From: Microlunatus sagamiharensis
Lineage (GTDB): Bacteria; Actinomycetota; Actinomycetes; Propionibacteriales; Propionibacteriaceae
DNA length: 64,000 bases
NCBI RefSeq assembly: GCF_900105785.1
Contig: NZ_LT629799.1
Span: forward strand, 992,001-1,056,000
Reading direction: 5' to 3'
Positions 4,954-17,788 of the stretch are shown here, piece after piece (the first letter of the stretch is position 1; each line of letters opens with the position of its first letter). The notes beneath the pieces were generated by a model. The model was not told the origin of the DNA, searched no databases, and saw only the letters and a program-made list of their open reading frames with translations. Both the position numbers and the translations under genes were made by a program.

Positions 4954-4971
4954 GAGTTTCGAGGAGTTTCG
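4954..4971 (+). promoter_or_regulatory. LacI-type operator (direct repeat GAGTTTCGAGGAGTTTCG)
   Basis: Two GAGTTTCG half-sites in tandem, 10 bp apart (one helical turn). The same 18 bp occurs in reverse complement at 12132-12149, upstream of the RraA-like gene. Here it lies about 54 bp before the regulator's start and just upstream of a CAGGAT -10 box at 4991-4996, so autoregulation is likely. Confidence 0.7.
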
Positions 4972-5024
4972 CCCGTGGCGCGTGCCGTGCCAGGATGACG
5001 CCGTCGTCCAAGGAGGGGGTGCTC

Positions 5025-6095
5025 GTGGCGCTCGACGGTCAGGGCCCGGCCGGCTCGCCCACCCGGGTCACGGTCGCCGACATCGCCCGGGACGCCGGCG
5101 TCTCCATCGCGACGGTCTCCAAGGTGCTCAACCGCCGTCCGGACGTGGCGGCGGAGACCCGGGCGCGGGTGAACGCGCTGCTGGCCGAGCGCGGCTACGT
5201 GCCGTCCACGCGGACCCGGAACAAGGCCCGGGCCGACCGTCCGGCGCGCGGCGGGCTCGTCGACCTCGTCTTCAACGACCCCGGCTCCCCCTGGGCCACC
5301 GAGGTCATCCGGGGCGCGGAGGTGGCGGCCCGCGCGGTGCGCGCCTCGGTCGTGGTGAGCGCGCTCGACCCCGCACCGCGGGCGCGCCGGCGCTGGCTGG
5401 ACGACCTGGCCGAGCGGGGCTCGCTCGGGCTCGTCCTCGCCGTGTCCAGCCTGTCGCCCGACGAGCAGGCCGCCGTGCGCCGGCTGGGCCTGCCGGTCGT
5501 GCTCATGGACCCGGTGGGTGACTTCGAGTCGACGCTGCCGGCCATGGGCTCCGGCAACTTCGGCGGCGGGCTCGCCGCCACCCAGCACCTCCTCGACCTC
5601 GGCCACCGCCGCGTCGCGACGATCACCGGCCCGATGCGCTACCTCTCGAGCCAGGCGCGCCTGGCGGGCTACCGCGCCGCCCTGGAGCGGGCGGGGCTGC
5701 CGGTGGTCCCGGAGCTGGTCCGCGAGGGCGACTTCCACCACGCGTCCGCGCGGGCGGCGAGCGAGGTGCTGCTCTCCCTCGCCGACCCGCCGACCGCGGT
5801 CTTCGCGGCCAACGACGAGCAGGCGCTCGGCGTGTACGCGACGGCGCAGGCCCGCGGGCTGCGGGTGCCCGAGGACCTGAGCGTCGTCGGCTTCGACGAC
5901 GTGCCGATGTCGCAGTGGGTGCTGCCGCCGCTGACCACGGTGCAGCAGCCCATCCGCGAGCTCGCCGCGATCGCGACCCGGTCGCTCCTCGGGCCGGCCG
6001 AGGGCGAGGGCCTCCCGCTGCGCGGGCGCGTCGAGCTGCCGACCACGCTCGTGGTCCGGGGGAGCACGGCGCCGGCGCGCGCCGCCGGCACCTAG
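5025..6095 (+). CDS. LacI/GalR-family transcriptional regulator
   Basis: DNA-binding regulator of 356 residues. The N-terminal LacI helix-turn-helix is textbook (VTVADIARDAGVSIATVSKVLN, residues about 14-35, followed by the hinge region), and the rest is a periplasmic-binding-protein-like sensor domain ending near VVRGS. The effector is probably a sugar or sugar acid imported or degraded by the adjacent genes (inference). The GTG at 5025 is preceded 8 nt upstream by AAGGAGG. The stop codon overlaps that of the convergent ABC ATPase (shared CTAG at 6092-6095). An operator identical to one before the RraA-like gene lies upstream, which argues that this protein controls both itself and the catabolic genes. 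Confidence 0.9.
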   Translation: MALDGQGPAGSPTRVTVADIARDAGVSIATVSKVLNRRPDVAAETRARVNALLAERGYVPSTRTRNKARADRPARGGLVDLVFNDPGSPWATEVIRGAEVAARAVRASVVVSALDPAPRARRRWLDDLAERGSLGLVLAVSSLSPDEQAAVRRLGLPVVLMDPVGDFESTLPAMGSGNFGGGLAATQHLLDLGHRRVATITGPMRYLSSQARLAGYRAALERAGLPVVPELVREGDFHHASARAASEVLLSLADPPTAVFAANDEQALGVYATAQARGLRVPEDLSVVGFDDVPMSQWVLPPLTTVQQPIRELAAIATRSLLGPAEGEGLPLRGRVELPTTLVVRGSTAPARAAGT

Positions 6096-7081
6096 CCGGC
6101 GGAACCGCCCGCGCCCACCGCGGCGGCGGGTTCGTCGCGGCGCTCGCGCGCGAAGTGGCAGACCGCGAGGTGGACCCGGCCCTCGGCGCCGAGCGCGGGG
6201 TCGGTCGTGGCGCACACCTCGCGCCCGGGCTCGACCGCCGGGCCGACCGGGCAGCGCAGCCGGTAGTCGCAGCCGGGCCCGGGGGCGGGGCTGGACGCGG
6301 CCGACGCCTCGATCGCGGTGTCGGACAGCAGCCGGTGCTGGCCGACCTCCGGCACCGCGGCGAGCAGCGAGCGGGTGTACGGGTGCTGCGCGCGGCCGAG
6401 GATGTCGTCCACGCCGCCCTGCTCGACGATCCGGCCGTTGAACATGACGGCCACGTCGTCGCACATGTAGCGCACGACGGCGAGGTTGTGGCTGATGAAG
6501 AGCATGGACAGCCCGAGGTCGGCCTGGAGCCGGCGCAGCAGGTTCAGCACCACGGCCTGCACCGACACGTCGAGGGACGCGGTGACCTCGTCCGCGACGA
6601 GCACGTCCGGACGGGCCGCGAGGGCGCGGGCGATGGCCACCCGCTGACGCTGGCCGCCCGACAGCTGCCCGGGCCGGCTGCGCACCAGGCCCTCGTCGAG
6701 GCTCACCAGGTCGAGCAGCTCCCGGATCCGTCGGCCCGCGTCTCTACGCTCGCCGGCCGGCAGCCCCTCGGCGACGCACTGGCCCACAGTGAAGCGCGGG
6801 TCGAGCGAGCTGCGCGAGTCCTGGAAGACCATCTGCACCCGGCGGCGGGCGTCCCGCGCGGCCCGGCTCCGCGGCGAGGACGCGTCGGCGTCCCCGACGC
6901 GGATGGTCCCGCTGAAGGGCGCCAGCCCGACCACGGCCCGCGCGGTCGTGCTCTTGCCCGAGCCCGACTCGCCGACCAGGCCCAGCACGGAGCCGGGGCG
7001 GAGGTCGAAGGAGACGGAGCGGACGGCGGTGACCGGGCCGTAGCGCACGGTGAGGTCCTGCACGGACAGCGCGGGGGTCAC
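6092..7081 (-). CDS. Oligopeptide-type ABC transporter ATPase (OppF/DppF-like)
   Basis: Cytoplasmic ATPase of 329 residues driving an importer. Walker A GESGSGKST, Q-loop MVFQDS, signature LSGGQRQR, Walker B VLVADEVTASLD and the switch His in FISHN are all present. The C-terminus carries the OppD/F extension with conserved cysteines (CDYRLRCP, then VC and VCHFA), typical of peptide/nickel-type ATPases and often an Fe-S or structural motif. The GTG start overlaps the stop of the upstream fusion gene (GTGA), so translation is coupled. Last gene of a four-gene minus-strand transport operon. Two ATPase domains (this one and the fusion) make the usual OppD/OppF heterodimer. Confidence 0.9.
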   Translation of the reverse strand: MTPALSVQDLTVRYGPVTAVRSVSFDLRPGSVLGLVGESGSGKSTTARAVVGLAPFSGTIRVGDADASSPRSRAARDARRRVQMVFQDSRSSLDPRFTVGQCVAEGLPAGERRDAGRRIRELLDLVSLDEGLVRSRPGQLSGGQRQRVAIARALAARPDVLVADEVTASLDVSVQAVVLNLLRRLQADLGLSMLFISHNLAVVRYMCDDVAVMFNGRIVEQGGVDDILGRAQHPYTRSLLAAVPEVGQHRLLSDTAIEASAASSPAPGPGCDYRLRCPVGPAVEPGREVCATTDPALGAEGRVHLAVCHFARERRDEPAAAVGAGGSAG

Positions 7082-9087
7082 GAAGCCGCCCTCTCGTCGA
7101 CGAGGCCCGCGGCCCCGGGGTATGTGGTGGAGGACCCGTCGGCCAGCGGGTGCCAGCAGGCGGCCCGGTGGCCGGGTGCCCCGATCTGCAGCAGCGGCGG
7201 CCGGGCGTCACGGCAGTCCTGCTCGGCCCGCGGGCAGCGCTCGGCGAAGTAGCACCCGGGCAGGTCCACCCCCGGACCGGGCATCCGGCCGTCGAGCATG
7301 GGGAGCGGCTGCGTACGGTCGGCGTCCATGTCGGGGCTCGCGGCGAGCAGCAGCCCGGTGTACGGGTGCGCCGGCCGCGCCAGCAGCTCGTCGGTCGTCG
7401 CCTCCTCGACGACGAATCCCGCGTACATGACGAGGATCCGGTCGCTGATCTCGGACACGACCGCGATGTCGTGGGAGATGAAGAGCACGCTCGCGCCCGT
7501 GTCGGCCCGCACCTCGGCGACCAGCCGCAGGATCTGGCGCTGCACGGTCACGTCGAGCGCCGTCGTCGGCTCGTCGGCGACCAGCAGCCGGGGCTCGCCC
7601 ATCAGGCCGATGGCGATGCAGACGCGCTGCTTGGTGCCGCCCGACAGCTCGTGCTGGTGCTGGTCAAAGCGCCGCTCCGGGTCGTTCACCGCGACTGCCC
7701 TCAGGGCGTCCAACGCGCGGCGCCGGGCCAGCGCCTTGTCCTGGTGCAGGTGCACGACCGCCGGCTCGACCAGGTGGGTGCCCACCTTCACCGCCGGGTT
7801 CAGCGCCTCGCCCGGGTCCTGGAAGATCATCGCCATCGAGCGGCCGAGGACCCGCTCGTCCTCGGCGGTGCGCCTGGTCAGGTCGACGTCGTCGAAGCGG
7901 AGCACCTCCGCGTGCACCGCGCCGGGCGCCTCGACGAGCTGGGCGACCGCGGAGGTCGCCATGCTCTTGCCCGAGCCGGACTCGCCGACGATGCCGACGG
8001 TCTCACCCGGCGCGATGCTGAACGACACGTCGCGCACCGGCGTGACGACGCCACCGTCGGGTCCCGGGTAGACGACCCGGAGGTGGCGCACCTCGAGCAG
8101 GGCCTCCCCGGCGGCGTCCGTCTCCGGCGCCACGGCGGCGACGGCGGGACCGGCGGCGTCGGCATTCGCGGACGGATCGACGTCGTCGCCGGTCGAGGGC
8201 CGCTGCGCCTCGGCGGCGACGGCGGTGCGCGGCGCCGTGCGCCGGCCGCCGACGAGGTCGGCGAGGTGCTCGCCCGCCATGTTGAACGTCAGCCCGGCCA
8301 GCACGATGGCCACCGCCGGGCCGACCGCCGCCGTGGGGGTGATGTAGACGCGGGTCAGGCCGTCGCTGAGCAGGCGTCCCCAGTCGTACGCGGGCGGCTG
8401 CACGCCGAGGCCGAGGAAGCTCAGCCCGGAGAGGGCGAGGATCGCCGTGCCGATGTGGATGGTCGTGTAGAGGATGACCGGCTCGGCGATGTTCGGCAGC
8501 ACGTGGCGCAGGACCACGGTGACCGGGCCCTTGCCGAGGACCCGGGCTGCCTCGACGTAGTCGCGGCTGACCGCCGACGCGGTGAGCGTCTGGGTGATGC
8601 GCGCGAAGCCGGGGGCGAAGGACGCCCCGACCGCGAGCACGGAGCCGACCGAGCCGATGCCGAAGAGCACCGCGAAGAAGATCGACAGCAGCAGCGCCGG
8701 GAAGGCCATCAGCAGGTTGATCACGGCGCCGAGGACCTTGCCCAGCCGGTGCGACGCGCCGGACAGCAGGCCGAGGGCGACGCCGACCACGCCGCCGACC
8801 ACGGTGGCCAGCACGGCGAGGACGAGCGAGCTGCGGGTCGCGTACAGCGTGCGCGCGAACAGGTCGCGGCCGAGGTCGTCGGTGCCGAGCCAGTGCTCGG
8901 CGCTCGCCGCCTGGTTGGCGTCGACGACGTTGGTGTCGCCCGCGGCGTGGCCCCAGATCCACGGGCCGGCGACGCTGAGGAAGACGAAGACGAGCAGCAG
9001 GGCGAGCGCGACGCCGCCGGGCAGCCGGACGCGCCGCCGTCGGGCGGTGGACCGGGTCGGGACGACCGTGGCGACGGTGGTGCTCAC
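7078..9087 (-). CDS. Permease-ATPase fusion of a peptide-type ABC transporter (DppC + DppD)
   Basis: A 669-residue fusion. Residues about 1-285 are a DppC-type permease: a short cytoplasmic N-terminus, the HWLGTDDLGRDLFAR motif, about six membrane segments and an EAA loop (EAARVLGKGPVTVVLRHVLP). A linker of about 45 residues rich in Ala/Asp follows. Residues about 335-665 are a DppD-type ATPase with Walker A GESGSGKSM, signature LSGGTKQR (Thr-Lys replacing the usual Gln-Arg/Met-Arg), Walker B LLVADEPTTALD and the Cys-containing C-terminal extension (CYFAERCP). The GTG start overlaps the preceding permease stop (GTGA). Such fusions occur in actinobacteria and fix a 1:1 stoichiometry. Confidence 0.9.
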   Translation of the reverse strand: MSTTVATVVPTRSTARRRRVRLPGGVALALLLVFVFLSVAGPWIWGHAAGDTNVVDANQAASAEHWLGTDDLGRDLFARTLYATRSSLVLAVLATVVGGVVGVALGLLSGASHRLGKVLGAVINLLMAFPALLLSIFFAVLFGIGSVGSVLAVGASFAPGFARITQTLTASAVSRDYVEAARVLGKGPVTVVLRHVLPNIAEPVILYTTIHIGTAILALSGLSFLGLGVQPPAYDWGRLLSDGLTRVYITPTAAVGPAVAIVLAGLTFNMAGEHLADLVGGRRTAPRTAVAAEAQRPSTGDDVDPSANADAAGPAVAAVAPETDAAGEALLEVRHLRVVYPGPDGGVVTPVRDVSFSIAPGETVGIVGESGSGKSMATSAVAQLVEAPGAVHAEVLRFDDVDLTRRTAEDERVLGRSMAMIFQDPGEALNPAVKVGTHLVEPAVVHLHQDKALARRRALDALRAVAVNDPERRFDQHQHELSGGTKQRVCIAIGLMGEPRLLVADEPTTALDVTVQRQILRLVAEVRADTGASVLFISHDIAVVSEISDRILVMYAGFVVEEATTDELLARPAHPYTGLLLAASPDMDADRTQPLPMLDGRMPGPGVDLPGCYFAERCPRAEQDCRDARPPLLQIGAPGHRAACWHPLADGSSTTYPGAAGLVDERAAS

Positions 9088-10106
9088 TCGAGGCCCCCGA
9101 TCCGCGAGCGCGGGTCGAGGACGCCCAGCATCACGTCCACGAGCATGTTGAGCAGCAGGACGGCGGCACCGAGGACGAGCAGGACGCCCTGCACGAGCGG
9201 GAAGTCCTTCTGGACCACCGCCTGGGAGATGACGGTCCCGACGCCGGGCCAGCCGAAGACGTTCTCGACGAGCACGGTCCCGGCCACGAGCCCGGACAGG
9301 ATCATGGCGCCGAAGGTGAGCGACGCGGTCATCATGTTCGGCAGCACGTGGCGCAGGTAGAGCAGCCGGCGCGGCAGGCGCCGCGACTTGGCCGCGCGGA
9401 CGTACTCGGTGTCGAGCACCTTGAGCGCCTCGACGCGCACGATGCGCGAGAGCGAGGCCGCGGGCCCCACCACGAGCGCCGCGACCGGGAGCACGTACGA
9501 CCGCGGTCCCGACAGCCCCGCCGCGGGGAAGAGCTTGAGGCCCACGACGAAGATCACGCTGAGCACCGTGGCCATGACGTAGTCCGGCACGGAGTTGAAG
9601 AAGCCGGTGACGTTGACGAAGACCCCGCGGGTGACGCGGCCCCGGCCGCCCCGCGTGCGCACGGCCGTCAGCAGCCCGACCGGCAGCGCGATGAGGATGA
9701 CGAGCACGAACGCGGGCAGCGCCAGCCGCAGCGTGTTCGGGAAGCGGGTGCCCAGCAGGTCGGCGACGGGCGCCTCGGTGACGATCGAGCTCCCCAGGTC
9801 GCCGGTGACGACCCCGCGCAGGTAGTGCACGTACTGCAGGGGGAGCGGCTGGTCGAGGCCGAGCTCGTGGCGCCGCAGCTCGACCAGCTGCGGCGTCGCC
9901 TGCTCGCCGAGCGCGGCCTGGACCGGGTCGCCCGGGATCAGGTGCACCATGACGAACGTCGCGGTGACCAGCACCAGCAGCGACACGACGAGCCGCAGCA
10001 GCCGGCTCGCGACGAAGCGCAGCCAGGGGTGGCCCGTCCTCCTCGCCGCCCGGTCGGCGGCAGGCGCGGGCAGCGGCCCGGCCGGTTCCAGCGTGGTGGC
10101 GCTCAT
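9084..10106 (-). CDS. Peptide-type ABC transporter permease (DppB/OppB-like)
   Basis: Inner-membrane permease of 340 residues with six membrane helices. It has the DppB hallmark after helix 1 (VHLIPGDPVQAALG), the HELGLDQPLPLQY segment and an EAA-type cytoplasmic loop (YVRAAKSRRLPRRLLYLRHVLPN). The C-terminal LVENVFGWPGVG region is typical of this family. It starts at ATG 10106 with a GGACGGGGA-like ribosome site. A stable hairpin at 10152-10192 separates it from the upstream binding-protein gene; the next gene overlaps its stop codon. Forms the translocation pore with the permease half of the fusion protein. Confidence 0.9.
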   Translation of the reverse strand: MSATTLEPAGPLPAPAADRAARRTGHPWLRFVASRLLRLVVSLLVLVTATFVMVHLIPGDPVQAALGEQATPQLVELRRHELGLDQPLPLQYVHYLRGVVTGDLGSSIVTEAPVADLLGTRFPNTLRLALPAFVLVILIALPVGLLTAVRTRGGRGRVTRGVFVNVTGFFNSVPDYVMATVLSVIFVVGLKLFPAAGLSGPRSYVLPVAALVVGPAASLSRIVRVEALKVLDTEYVRAAKSRRLPRRLLYLRHVLPNMMTASLTFGAMILSGLVAGTVLVENVFGWPGVGTVISQAVVQKDFPLVQGVLLVLGAAVLLLNMLVDVMLGVLDPRSRIGGLE

Positions 10107-10151
10107 CGGCGTCCCCGTCCTCTCGTCCGACGTCCGGCTCTGGTAGTCAGC

Positions 10152-10192
10152 CCGGCCGTGCGCCGCGTCGGGTCGACGCGGCGCACGGCCGG
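10152..10192 (-). terminator. Strong hairpin between binding-protein and permease genes (attenuator or mRNA stabiliser)
   Basis: A perfect 18-bp GC-rich stem (arms 10152-10169 and 10175-10192) with a 5-nt loop lies 8 nt after the binding-protein stop codon. It has no T-run. Such stem-loops after binding-protein genes in ABC operons commonly let that gene be expressed more than the permeases, by partial termination or 3'-end protection. Confidence 0.75.
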
Positions 10193-10200
10193 CGCGGTCG

Positions 10201-11799
10201 CTACTGGCTCAGCCGGATGCTCGTCGGCACCGCGAACAGGCCGACGGTCTGCAGGGTCGCCTTGGAGGTGTAGAAGGGCCGGTCGCCGTTCGACACGGGG
10301 ATCACGTCGGCCCGCTTGAACAGCTCCTGGTGGGCCTTGGTCCACAGCGGGCAGGCCTCCTCGGCCGGCGCGGCGGCCGCCTGGGCCGACAGCTCCTCGA
10401 ACTGCGGGTTGCGGATGTCGCCGGAGTTGCGCCCGCCGTCGGCCGGGGTCGCCCCGCCGAAGAAGGTGGTCGCCATGTAGGGGAACTCGACGTTGATCGC
10501 GCTGTAGAAGATGTCGAAGTCCGCGGTGGTGTAGAGCGACTCGAGGAAGGCGGCGTTGGTGAGGCCGACGAGGTCGCTGCCGATGCCGGCGGCCTTGAGC
10601 TGCTGGCCCAGCAGCTCCACCGCGGAGGCGGTCTGCGGAGCGCCGGTCTGGTAGATGACCTTGACCGTGAGCGGCTTGCCGTCCTTGGTCCGGGTGCCGT
10701 CGGCGCCCTTCGTCCAGCCCGCGGCGTCGAGGACCGAGTTCGCCTTGGCGACGTCGAAGGTCGGCAGCGCGCCGGTCGTCTCGTCACCGGGGCAGGCCAC
10801 GGGGGCCTCGGCGATGAGGTTGGTCGCCAGCGTGCCCTGGTTGGCGGTGCTGACCGGGGCGAGGTCGTCGCGGTTGACCGCGGAGGCCGCGGCCTGGCGC
10901 AGCTGCTCGTCGTTGAAGAGCCGGCCGGCGGCCTCGTTGAAGTTGATCTCGCCGACGATCACCGGGACGTCGAAGCGCTGCACGCCGGGCGTCTTGTCCA
11001 GCCGCGCCCGGTCGGGACCGGTGATCTGCGCGGCGTTGATCTGGCCGGAGACGAGCTGGTTGGCCATGGTCGACTCGTTGGCGACGAAGGCGATGGTGAC
11101 CTTCTTCGGCACGCCGGGCGTGCTCGTCGCGGCGCCGGCCGGACCCCAGGTGTAGCCGTCGCGGCGCTCGAAGTCGTAGTGGTCGCCGGAGACGTAGTTG
11201 GTGATCTTGAACGGTCCGGTGCCCGCCGAGGCGTGCTCGATGGAGTCGGGGTCCTTGAGCCCCGCGGGGCACACGATCGGCACGGCGCCCGCGCCCTGCA
11301 GCAGCGAGCCGAAGGGCTTCTTCGAGGTGATCGTGAACGTCCCGGCCGCGTCGTCGGAGGAGACCGTGTACGCGACCGGCACCGACAGCGCCACCCAGGG
11401 CGAGAGCGTCTTCGGGTCCTTGATGTAGTTGAAGTCGGCCTCGATGTCGCTCGGCTTGAGCTTCTGGCCGTCGTCGCAGGTCGCGGCCTGGCCGAGGGTG
11501 TAGGTGACCGAGTCGCCCTTGACCTCCCAGCTGGTGGCGAGCTGGGGGACCGGCTTGCCGTCCGCGCCGCGCCCGACCAGCGTGTCGTAGGCGAAGGCGT
11601 ACACCTGGCGGTTGAAGCCGCCGGTGCTCTTGTAGGGGTTCACGCTGCCCGGGTCGCTGCCGAGGTTCATCGTGAACGTGCCGTCGACCTGCGGCGCACC
11701 CTGGCTCGTGGTCCCGCCGGCGTCACCCCCTCCGCCGCAGGCCGCGAGGAGGGTCAGGAGTGAGGCTGCGGCCACCGCGGGCAGCGTCGTGCGCTTCAT
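10201..11799 (-). CDS. Extracellular solute-binding lipoprotein, family 5 (peptide/oligosaccharide ABC importer)
   Basis: Exported binding protein of 532 residues. The signal peptide ends in a lipobox (LTLLAAC, then Gly-rich GGGGDAGG), so it is anchored to the outer face of the membrane. The SBP_bac_5 pattern is present: an N-terminal DPGSVNPYKSTGGF segment, AYDTLVGRGADGKPVPQLATSWE, the AGTGPFKITNYVSGD region and NEAAGRLFNDEQLRQAAASAVNR. Family members bind oligopeptides, but some bind oligosaccharides or opines. With a sugar-acid dehydratase divergent from it, a carbohydrate-derived ligand is plausible (inference). ATG 11799 has AAGGTG upstream. First gene of the minus-strand transport operon. 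Confidence 0.9.
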   Translation of the reverse strand: MKRTTLPAVAAASLLTLLAACGGGGDAGGTTSQGAPQVDGTFTMNLGSDPGSVNPYKSTGGFNRQVYAFAYDTLVGRGADGKPVPQLATSWEVKGDSVTYTLGQAATCDDGQKLKPSDIEADFNYIKDPKTLSPWVALSVPVAYTVSSDDAAGTFTITSKKPFGSLLQGAGAVPIVCPAGLKDPDSIEHASAGTGPFKITNYVSGDHYDFERRDGYTWGPAGAATSTPGVPKKVTIAFVANESTMANQLVSGQINAAQITGPDRARLDKTPGVQRFDVPVIVGEINFNEAAGRLFNDEQLRQAAASAVNRDDLAPVSTANQGTLATNLIAEAPVACPGDETTGALPTFDVAKANSVLDAAGWTKGADGTRTKDGKPLTVKVIYQTGAPQTASAVELLGQQLKAAGIGSDLVGLTNAAFLESLYTTADFDIFYSAINVEFPYMATTFFGGATPADGGRNSGDIRNPQFEELSAQAAAAPAEEACPLWTKAHQELFKRADVIPVSNGDRPFYTSKATLQTVGLFAVPTSIRLSQ

Positions 11800-11987
11800 G
11801 AATGCACCTTTGCTTCAGGAACGTTCGCTTGGGAGGCGTTGCTCGCGGGCGCCGCGTCGGAGGACGGACGGCCGGGGCAAGAGGCGTCGGAGAGGGCACG
11901 TGCTCCGAAAGAACGGCTTCTCTTTCGACGTTGCGTGCACCGTACGTTCAGCCTTGGTCGACCGTCAAGGGTCGCGTGGCGCGTTTC

Positions 11988-12001
11988 CGAAACCGGTTTC
12001 G
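11988..12001. promoter_or_regulatory. LacI-family operator palindrome CGAAACCGGTTTCG
   Basis: Perfect 14-bp palindrome with the central CG typical of LacI/GalR operators. It lies between the divergent promoters of the transporter and the catabolic genes, about 20 bp upstream of the transporter -35 box. Confidence 0.7.
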
Positions 12002-12131
12002 ACAGCCGCGGCGGATCGGCGTGCTGGTGCTGACAGCGAGCGCGAACACGCGTACGGTGACGACACGAAACCGTCCTCCCGCCCTGCGGGGCGGTCCACG
12101 GTTCCGCGAAGGGCCGGCTGTCCTCGAGCCT

Positions 12132-12149
12132 CGAAACTCCTCGAAACTC
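12132..12149 (+). promoter_or_regulatory. LacI-type operator, second copy (CGAAACTCCTCGAAACTC)
   Basis: Exact reverse complement of 4954-4971. It lies in the long 5' leader of the RraA-like gene, about 75 bp downstream of its predicted -10 box, where bound repressor could act as a roadblock. Confidence 0.7.
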
Positions 12150-12225: not shown

Positions 12226-13005
12226 ATGGTCGAGACCTCCGACATCCAACGCCCCGACCCCGCGGTGGTGCGCGGGCTGGAGGCGATCGGCAGCGCCACC
12301 GCCAGCAGCGAGCTGAACAAGCTCGGGGTGCGCAGCGCGCACATCCGCGGCCCGGTGGCCCGGACGCCCGGGGCGCGCATCGCCGGCCCGGCGCTCACGC
12401 TGCAGTTCCTGCCCAAGCGCGAGGACCTCTACCAGGTCGACGAGTACGCCGAGCCGGAGAAGCAGCTGCACCGCCACGTCATGTACCACACCCAGCCCGG
12501 CGACGTGATCGTCGTCGACGCCCGCGGCGACATGGCCAGCGGCGTCTTCGGGGAGATGATGCTGACCTACTTCGCCGGTCGCGGCGGCGTCGGCGTCGTC
12601 GTCGACGGGTGCATCCGGGACTTCGGCGAGGCCAAGGACCTCGGGGTCGGCCTGTGGCTGAACGGCACCACCCCGAACTTCCACTCCCAGACCGACATCT
12701 TCCCGCACGCGGTGAACGTCCCCGTGGCCTGCGGCGGCACGGTCGTGGTGCCCGGCGACATCATCGTGGCCGACGACGACGGCGCGGTGGTCGTGCCGAT
12801 CGCGCTCGCGCCGCGCTTGCTCGAGGAGGCGAGCCAGCACGCGGAGTGGGAGGACTTCTCGCGGCTGCGGCTCTCCCAGGGCGGTGACCTGCGCCTGTAC
12901 TACCCGCTGTCGGAGGCCGCCCGCCCCGAGTACGAGGCGTGGCGCGCGGCGCAGGCCGACGAATCCGGCGCCTCCACCGCGACCGCCGCGGGGGGCTCGC
13001 GGTGA
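12226..13005 (+). CDS. RraA/HMG-aldolase family protein, probable 2-oxo-acid aldolase
   Basis: A 259-residue member of the RraA-like family, which includes 4-hydroxy-4-methyl-2-oxoglutarate and related class II pyruvate aldolases. The active-site pattern is present: a glycine-rich turn with Glu (MASGVFGEMM) and the metal-binding VDGCIRD (Arg-Asp pair). The substrate is not determinable from sequence. Adjacent to an enolase-superfamily acid-sugar dehydratase, it most likely cleaves the 2-keto-3-deoxy acid made by that enzyme, giving pyruvate plus an aldehyde (inference). It starts at ATG 12226 with AGGAGAG upstream. The next gene overlaps its stop (GTGA), so the two are co-translated. The alternative RNase-regulator role of E. 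coli RraA is unlikely here. Confidence 0.8.
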   Translation: MVETSDIQRPDPAVVRGLEAIGSATASSELNKLGVRSAHIRGPVARTPGARIAGPALTLQFLPKREDLYQVDEYAEPEKQLHRHVMYHTQPGDVIVVDARGDMASGVFGEMMLTYFAGRGGVGVVVDGCIRDFGEAKDLGVGLWLNGTTPNFHSQTDIFPHAVNVPVACGGTVVVPGDIIVADDDGAVVVPIALAPRLLEEASQHAEWEDFSRLRLSQGGDLRLYYPLSEAARPEYEAWRAAQADESGASTATAAGGSR

Positions 13006-14165
13006 AGGTCACGGCCGTGGTGCCCTGGCTCGTCTCGTCCGCGGCGTCCTTCTGGGGCGAGTTCCTCTTCGTCGAGGTCCGCACCGACGAGGGCGTCACC
13101 GGCTGGGGCGAGGTCACGAGCACCACGCGCACGGCCAACCGGTCGGTCGCGCGGATGGTCCGCGAGGTCGAGGAGCTCGTGGTGGGGGAGGACCCCGCCG
13201 CGATCGAGCTGGTCTGGCACAAGCTGTTCCGCGCCTTCACCTACGCCGGGAGCCGGGGGGCGGCCTGCCTGGTCGCGAGCGCGGTCGACATCGCGCTCTG
13301 GGACGTCCGCGGCAAGGTGCTCGGGCTGCCGGTCGCCGAGCTGCTCGGCGGACCCGTACGGCGTGACCTGCTGCTCTACACCCACCCCGACCAGAGCCGG
13401 TTCGGCACGCCCGAGGGCGTGGCCGAGGAGATCGGCCGCATCGTCGGCGCGGGCTACACCGCGATCAAGTTCGACCCGTTCCCGCACGCCGAGGACGTGC
13501 CCGAGGCGAACGACCGCTACCTCGACGGCCGCCTGTCGCGGCGCGACGAGAACCGGGCGATCGAGCTGTCGCGCCAGATCCGGGAGGCGGCCGGTCCCGA
13601 CGTCGAGCTGCTCGTCGACGCCCACGGCCGCTTCGACGTCCCGACCGCCATCCGGCTCGCCAACCACCTCCACGAGGCGGTCGACCTGCACTGGTTCGAG
13701 GAGCCGGTGCCGCCGGAGAGCCAGCACGCGCTGCGCCAGGTGCGGGAGCGGACCGAGGTGCCGCTGTCGGTGGGCGAGCGGCTGCACACCCGCTGGGACT
13801 TCGTCACCGTCCTCGAGCAGGAGCTCGCCGACTTCGTGATGCCCGACGTGACCTGGACCGGCGGGATCAGCGAGCTCAAGAAGATCGCCACGCTGGCCGA
13901 GGCCCACTACGTGCCGGTCTCGCCGCACGACGCGGCCGGTCCGGTGAACCTCCTCGCCGGGGCGCACGTCATGGCCACGACGCCGAACTTCTACCGCATC
14001 GAGTCGAGCAGCTTCGACCTCGCGGTCTACAACGAGCTGCTCGAGGAGCCGCTGGCCGCGGTCGACGGCCGGCTGCCGCTGCCGACCGCGCCGGGGCTGG
14101 GCGTGGCCTTCGACCTGGACCACCTGCGCGCCCACGCCGTCGACGGGTTCGGCGGCACCGACTGA
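13002..14165 (+). CDS. Mandelate racemase/enolase-superfamily enzyme, probable acid-sugar dehydratase
   Basis: A 387-residue protein with an N-terminal capping domain (to about residue 125) and a C-terminal TIM-type barrel. Metal ligands are visible in order: Asp in LLVDAHGRFD, Glu in WFEEPVPPE and Glu in SVGERLHT; the catalytic His lies in VSPHDAAGP. A KFDPF motif sits at the second strand. This pattern fits the dehydratases of the MR subgroup (galactonate/fuconate/gluconate-like) that remove water to give 2-keto-3-deoxy acids. The exact sugar acid cannot be named. The GTG start is within the stop of the RraA-like gene. Together they form a two-step breakdown module next to a dedicated importer. 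Confidence 0.85.
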   Translation: MKVTAVVPWLVSSAASFWGEFLFVEVRTDEGVTGWGEVTSTTRTANRSVARMVREVEELVVGEDPAAIELVWHKLFRAFTYAGSRGAACLVASAVDIALWDVRGKVLGLPVAELLGGPVRRDLLLYTHPDQSRFGTPEGVAEEIGRIVGAGYTAIKFDPFPHAEDVPEANDRYLDGRLSRRDENRAIELSRQIREAAGPDVELLVDAHGRFDVPTAIRLANHLHEAVDLHWFEEPVPPESQHALRQVRERTEVPLSVGERLHTRWDFVTVLEQELADFVMPDVTWTGGISELKKIATLAEAHYVPVSPHDAAGPVNLLAGAHVMATTPNFYRIESSSFDLAVYNELLEEPLAAVDGRLPLPTAPGLGVAFDLDHLRAHAVDGFGGTD

Positions 14166-17539: not shown

Positions 17540-17788
17540 GGACGCTCCCTGATCCGGGCGAGGGGGCTGAGCACGGTCCCTGAGCTTGTCGGAGGGGGCC
17601 TCGAAGAGGTCGGGGTCGAGGGCAGGGAAGACGCCAACCGCTTCGGGGCCCTTCGACAAGCTCAGGGAGCGTCTCTCGCCTCACCGACCGGCCTTGAGAA
17701 CGCTTCCTGAGCCTGTCGACGGGGCCGAGGGACGCTCCCTGAGCCTGTCGAAGGGCCTCGAAGAGGTCGGCGTCCCTCCGGGAACCGG
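17540..17788. repeat. Cluster of CCCTGAGCTTGTCGAAGGG-type dispersed repeats
   Basis: Four copies of a 20-bp imperfect-palindromic element: 17577-17596 (TCCCTGAGCTTGTCGGAGGG), 17649-17668 (inverted), 17704-17723 and 17736-17755. Two are followed by GGCCTCGAAGAGGTCGG, and a degenerate fifth starts near 17546. Another exact copy lies at 55293-55312. The units fill the gap between convergent DUF5703 and aldo/keto reductase genes. The inverted pair can fold back and may act as a bidirectional terminator. Confidence 0.85.

Follow-up and report, generated by a model that had tools for sequence, protein, structure and literature searches.

Tandem half-sites upstream of a LacI-family gene without canonical hinge residues and of a nearby putative sugar-acid operon in Microlunatus sagamiharensis

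The stretch of DNA analysed here (the window, 64,000 nucleotides), from the soil actinobacterium Microlunatus sagamiharensis, contains two copies of an 18-base element with head-to-tail half-sites, one upstream of a gene encoding a LacI-family protein without canonical hinge residues (LacI-A) and the other upstream of an operon at the same locus, whose divergent regulatory region also contains a palindrome. These two types of site probably correspond to two repressors acting on one divergent region: LacI-A would read the tandem elements without the constraint imposed by the hinge, and a second protein of the same family (LacI-B) would read the palindrome.

Results

Gene organization of the locus

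The genome holding the window is a single contig of 4,405,185 bases. Profile search of the window shows a locus with three parts: lacI-A, an ABC transporter operon that runs leftward, and two rightward genes for an RraA-like protein and a dehydratase. The first candidate tandem operator (4954..4971, forward strand) has AGTTTCG at 4955-4961 and 4965-4971 and lies upstream of lacI-A (5025..6095, forward strand), whose product shows the Pfam LacI and Peripla_BP_3 domains; the GTG start at 5025 was picked by eye from a ribosome-binding site common to Microlunatus flavus, and an alternative ATG is found at 4995. The reverse strand contains, according to profile matches, genes encoding an ABC transporter ATPase of the DppF/OppF type (6092..7081), a fused ABC permease (DppC type) and ATPase (DppD type) (7078..9087), and an ABC permease of the DppB type (9084..10106), followed by a gene encoding a solute-binding protein of the Pfam SBP_bac_5 family (10201..11799). 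Upstream of the latter there is a CGAAAG-N10-CTTTCG inverted pair (11906..11927), a candidate LacI-A site on the basis of its conservation. The second candidate tandem operator (12132..12149, reverse strand) has CGAAACT at 12132-12138 and 12142-12148 and lies upstream of a gene of the RraA-like aldolase family (12226..13005, forward strand; Pfam RraA-like). This gene, rraA, is followed by one encoding an enolase-superfamily dehydratase (13002..14165, forward strand; profile match, GTG start at 13002 set by eye), whose nearest NCBIfam model is the galactonate dehydratase, with a score below the cut-off. Judged from family membership, this is a putative cluster for sugar-acid uptake and catabolism. 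A promoter scan of both intergenic regions found none, and promoter positions were set by eye: in the window the second tandem would lie downstream of the rraA promoter, and the -35 region of the lacI-A promoter would be overlapped by the proximal tandem half-site.

The tandem element in the genome and in the genus

The 18-mer GAGTTTCGAGGAGTTTCG is present at 4954-4971 of the forward strand and its exact reverse complement at 12132-12149, as a preliminary description of this DNA had stated, and the coordinates of AGTTTCG and CGAAACT bear out that the half-sites are tandem with a 10-bp step. With up to three mismatches the window shows two matches, against 0.04 expected from shuffles, and a scan of the whole genome at the same threshold gives the same two matches only, so that no copies are found at unrelated loci; about 1.6e-5 exact matches would be expected in the whole genome from its base composition. 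Pairs of TTTCG or CGAAA in direct orientation with a step of 10 or 11 are found at these two places only within the 64-kb window. The preliminary description also held that an exact 18-bp repeat within 7 kb is very unlikely to arise by chance. This stands on the genome scan, but not on length alone, because the first 20 kb contain four more repeated stretches of at least 18 bases, and repeats of this length are no rarity in this GC-rich DNA. The element differs from the usual LacI palindrome, as had been proposed, and the tandem arrangement is conserved upstream of lacI as well as of the rraA operon. The alternative that each CGAAAC of the 18-mer is half of a degenerate palindrome was rejected, since by eye the dyad has at most about four bases.

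The shorter pattern GTTTCG-N4-5-GTTTCG shows 14 matches in 20 genomes of the genus, and its reversed control pattern shows four. Five of the 14 are at relevant loci: two in the window, one at the rraA gene of M. flavus and two in a further species (genome G100). The remaining nine showed no link to this locus and had no recognised LacI gene up to 1.5 kb away; taken by itself, the hexamer pair classifies poorly. Across the family, the 18-mer with up to two mismatches is found in 27 of 198 genomes, a raw count which includes its own.

Conservation of the tandems

Comparison of orthologous loci, which the preliminary description had suggested as a check, shows tandems before both genes in M. flavus and in G100. 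The nearest named relative of LacI-A is an M. flavus protein (88% over residues 24-359). In that species the rraA tandem is CGAAACT-cac-CGAAACT, with 14 of 14 half-site bases kept, and the lacI tandem is AGTTTCG-ccc-ACTTTCG, with 13 of 14 kept; relative to the window, the spacers of both are replaced and the halves are maintained. The CGAAAG/CTTTCG pair keeps 12 of 12 half-site bases, with a spacer of 11. When the tandems, the palindrome and this pair are marked in both intergenic regions and gaps are counted as changes, 53 of 54 marked bases are identical between the window and M. flavus, as against 287 of the 498 intergenic bases outside the marks (Fisher 3e-11). For the tandem half-sites taken separately, 27 of 28 bases are identical (Fisher 7e-6). 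The preliminary description took the two tandems to define the regulon boundaries; this is too strong, since the further conserved CGAAAG...CTTTCG pair lies before the solute-binding protein gene.

G100 is the third species with both the repressor and the operon, and its LacI-A is 61% identical. It shows GTTTCG-aacga-GTTTCG, with an 11-bp step, before lacI-A and CTTTCG-gaca-GTTTCG, with a 10-bp step, before rraA; the latter has the opposite orientation to that of the window and a third TTTCG 22 bp further on. Judged from shuffles (0.03 per 53 regions for each step), a pair with either of these steps should turn up about once in a thousand regions, and the G100 stretches (34 kb) contain three such pairs: those at lacI-A and at rraA, and a third that follows a different LacI gene.

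Of the 391 genomes of the order, five have a close rraA orthologue (E up to 1e-80), and the tandem is present in all three of these that contain LacI-A. The other two, G101 and G093, have rraA followed by the dehydratase gene and lack a LacI-A orthologue, and no tandem is found in the 16 and 15 kb examined, respectively; the region upstream of rraA in G093 has two single TTTCG, separated by 40 bp. No match to the solute-binding protein or to Dpp was found in either stretch examined. Two genomes of another family (G654 and G767) contain LacI-A homologues (61%) with no CGAAA or TTTCG within 300 bp upstream. In both proteins an Arg replaces the Ile before ATVSKVLN, and neither rraA nor the solute-binding protein gene has a match in the stretch examined. 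These two genomes are evidence against a universal rule, and we read them as having a different regulon.

LacI-A and its hinge

LacI-A belongs to the LacI/GalR family (PF00356, E 4.2e-15; PF13377, E 2.6e-40). Its best NCBIfam model is CytR, with 201.6 bits against a cut-off of 436; by this cut-off it is not CytR. Docking of the hinge helix on a central CG is described as typical of the family although not universal, with a conserved hinge Leu inserted into the central CG and a hinge Ala also described (PMC2978694). In our alignment the hinge Ala/Leu is found in none of the 41 members of the hinge-less clade, LacI-A included, versus all 15 hinge-bearing controls, which are mostly near-identical Lentzea sequences and not independent events. 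The residues were scored at offsets +6 and +9 after the helix-3 aromatic, offsets which follow the E. coli LacI and PurR sequences. A quick tree groups LacI-A with the homologues of loci L077 and L078 (SH-aLRT 100), within the hinge-less rows. The AlphaFold model of LacI-A has a pLDDT of 58 in the linker block 61-70, with a helix drawn at 62-70; that of a hinge-bearing control, a poorer model (mean 71.9), is lower still at its hinge, with under 50 at 47-58. These models do not show a LacI-A linker looser than a normal hinge; that the linker is flexible is suggested by the sequence.

The CGAAA half-site in the hinge-less clade

The regions upstream of 53 hinge-less lacI genes contain 92 CGAAA half-sites, versus 28.5 in shuffles (the largest of 200 shuffles had 40). 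These are oriented 250-bp regions, with distances taken from the start of the homology match and not from the true gene start. They correspond to loci L076-L105 and L124-L147 (54) minus the hinge-bearing L103, orthologues included; rows L051 and L054 of the scan have no assigned orientation. The main arrangement is convergent with step 6 (CGAAAnTTTCG), found in 16 of the 53 regions, and convergent step 7 is found in five. Direct step 10 is found in five regions and direct step 11 in one, and these cases represent about three lineages (LacI-A; L094/L095; L091), not independent events. Between 0.01 and 0.03 regions are expected for convergent step 6 and for each of the direct steps, and other geometries occur in one to three regions each. 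In L091, L094 and L095 the direct pairs overlap convergent pairs; the upstream regions of L076, L077 and L078 show no convergent pair with step 6 or 7. None of the 53 regions has a pair arranged as in the window palindrome (CGAAA-N4-TTTCG, step 9).

Among 20 permutations of CGAAA, convergent 6/7 pairs come from CGAAA alone (20 of 53 regions), and direct pairs come from CGAAA (six) and from the overlapping GAAAC (two). In the 19 hinge-bearing control regions no CGAAA pairs are found, although ACGAA, another of the permutations, yields a single direct pair there. The genome has four instances of CGAAA-N1-2-TTTCG, versus about one expected, and three of them are at loci with a hinge-less LacI gene. 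Because LacI-A belongs to the hinge-less clade and CGAAA/TTTCG is enriched upstream of the lacI genes of this clade, LacI-A is the likely reader of the tandems, in a CytR-like mode.

The palindrome and LacI-B

The canonical palindrome CGAAACCGGTTTCG is located at 11988-12001, within the divergent region, as previously noted. The genome scan shows one more exact copy and one copy with a single mismatch, about 1.93 Mb away; they are 2.1 kb apart and flank the gene of LacI-B, a protein with both hinge residues present. The neighbours of this gene encode an enolase-superfamily dehydratase, a PfkB-like kinase and an aldo-keto reductase, the last two named by eye. M. flavus shows the corresponding three palindrome sites at the same two loci and one further site with one mismatch. 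Two of the 20 genus genomes have exact CGAAACCGGTTTCG, and these are also the only ones with LacI-B (E up to 1e-60), although the two species are close relatives and the co-occurrence may represent a single evolutionary event. G100 has no LacI-B, and shows no palindrome in the locus stretch examined and no exact copy in its genome. Its rraA operon is adjoined by a dehydratase gene whose product is 65% identical to that of LacI-B's neighbour, a placement which supports a functional link between the two loci. Even, CG-centred sites are those used by most surveyed LacI-family regulators (PMC4052901); the tandem element has no dyad. Given its co-occurrence with LacI-B and the palindromes at the LacI-B locus, the palindrome is best read as a LacI-B site, that is, as cross-regulation of this region by LacI-B.

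Discussion

Proposed regulation of the divergent region

We propose that the LacI-A clade, having lost the residues with which the hinge docks on a central CG, recognises half-sites of the CGAAA/TTTCG type. This loss would free LacI-A to bind two head-to-tail half-sites, one helical turn apart on the same face of the DNA, either as one symmetry-broken dimer or as two dimers. At the tandem of its own promoter LacI-A would repress its own gene. At the tandem before the rraA-dehydratase operon it would act from within the leader in the window and, in G100, from close to the promoter, and it probably also binds the CGAAAG-N10-CTTTCG pair before the solute-binding protein gene. It would come off the DNA in response to a sugar-acid inducer. 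The hinge-bearing LacI-B, encoded at a second sugar-acid locus, would read the palindrome in the middle of the region.

A wider extension of this proposal, which we put forward only tentatively and consider rather doubtful, is that a large actinobacterial clade of hinge-less LacI proteins has a near-fixed recognition helix and an equally near-fixed CGAAA half-site, and that the arrangement of the half-sites distinguishes the paralogues of each cell. The half-sites would either converge, with one or two bases between them, or follow each other head to tail at 10-11 bp. The specialist for the latter arrangement would be LacI-A, binding as a symmetry-broken dimer, and loss of the hinge would have made arrangement the specificity determinant.

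The preliminary description had suggested two binding modes for one repressor. LacI-A would then recognise the palindrome as well as the tandems, and CytR does bind repeats of both orientations, inverted and direct (PMC3454398). CGAAAC/GTTTCG is indeed common to palindrome and tandem, and both sites lie within a region most likely controlled by LacI-A. However, the step-9 geometry is absent from all 53 clade regions, G100 contains LacI-A and tandems but has neither a palindrome in its locus stretch nor an exact copy in its genome, and the palindrome tracks LacI-B across the 20 genomes. We do not favour this explanation and think it unlikely; from the sequence comparisons, two repressors are more likely than one.

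Direct repeats one helical turn apart are more usual in the response-regulator and AraC-type families. A third, unlinked regulator of such a family could thus read the tandems, with lacI-A as one of its targets, the more so as binding by LacI-A is something that we infer from sequence; yet the same half-site is enriched upstream of LacI-A's own relatives, no tandem is found where rraA occurs without LacI-A, and in this genome the 18-mer is limited to this locus, which makes this explanation improbable. The further 18-base repeats in the first 20 kb, and the nine hexamer pairs with no link to this locus and no LacI gene recognised within 1.5 kb, might suggest that the 18-mer recurs by chance or has no function. 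This is very improbable, given that the genome has no further match, that the two copies lie in two regulatory regions, that M. flavus keeps the halves and changes the spacers, and that G100 has tandems at the same two genes.

Comparison with known systems

LacI-family operators are described as generally palindromic and usually even with a central CG (PMC4052901), and the ability to read direct repeats is said to be confined to a small number of regulators, most of which belong to the AraC family (PMC9723621). In the open-licence literature we recognised no LacI case with direct-repeat operators besides CytR. CytR, a LacI member of Enterobacteriales and Vibrionales, has direct-repeat sites with relaxed spacing and acts with CRP (PMC3454398), and its linker is reported as unstructured in the title of a paper cited there. 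LacI-A resembles it in its family, in its predicted direct-repeat sites and in a variable half-site arrangement, for LacI-A the steps 10 and 11 seen in sequence; the reported CytR direct repeats have spacers of about 1 bp between octamers, whereas the LacI-A 7-mers are 3 or 4 bp apart. For BxlR of Streptomyces the reported recognition motif is CGAANxTTCG, and CGAANNTTTCG has been linked to a BxlR homologue (PMC12772271). The half-site of the BxlR motif, CGAA/TTCG, is that of the convergent motif dominant upstream of LacI-A's relatives; unlike this motif, the LacI-A sites are head to tail, with no convergent pair at lacI or rraA. Within the LacI family, LacI-A can thus be placed in a CGAAA clade resembling BxlR; in the open-licence literature we found no description of its half-site arrangement for that clade. 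The crevar sites of CcpA, also of the LacI family, have flexible half-site spacing (0-40 nt; PMC5263246), but their half-sites are inverted and those of LacI-A are tandem. A large LacI-family survey looked for palindromic motifs only and notes an underrepresentation of Actinobacteria (PMC4052901); if an actinobacterial clade has lost the hinge and some of its members use tandems, palindrome surveys miss their regulons. ArdK, of the KorA family, binds direct repeats as a dimer by breaking symmetry (PMC9723621). It belongs to an unrelated family, is plasmid-borne and is a mechanistic parallel to LacI-A only; the reading proposed here, if true, makes testable how a family of symmetric-dimer repressors reads a direct repeat.

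The centre of the palindrome in the divergent region (window 11988-12001), a candidate operator of the hinge-bearing repressor LacI-B, and the centre of the tandem half-sites upstream of rraA (window 12132-12149) are separated by 146 bp in both M. sagamiharensis (window 11994-12141) and M. flavus (L035 17006-17153, the counterpart locus). Alignment of the window with M. flavus shows one-base gaps between the two elements, which compensate each other. This equal distance is perhaps a looping distance, or perhaps ordinary colinearity. The same intergenic region contains a lone CGAAAC at window 12066-12071, close to the rraA start site placed by eye, which is not kept in the aligned intergenic region of M. 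flavus. Elsewhere in the window, a single reading frame of 669 aa (7078-9087) fuses a DppC-type ABC permease and a DppD-type ATPase, and clustered near-identical repeats, inverted and direct, with arms of 49 nt at 90%, are located past the peptidase gene (17540-17774).

Outside the window, the M. sagamiharensis genome shows a fourth CGAAAGTTTCG site at L177 position 1501 (genome 3825475), between genes that resemble, by eye, a sugar kinase and a transport gene. The genome of another species, G101, which has rraA and no LacI-A orthologue, contains two palindromes with one mismatch (CGAATCCGGTTTCG) at C1:2695731 and 2697284; these are 1.55 kb apart and perhaps flank a further LacI gene. Tandem GTTTCG-N5-GTTTCG half-sites, with an 11-bp step, are found directly past the 3' end of another hinge-less LacI-type gene in G100, a Microlunatus-group genome (L106:2439-2455), and of a second, hinge-less LacI-type gene in two species of another family (L192 and L193). 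Given these further tandems, such half-sites may recur across the hinge-less LacI clade.
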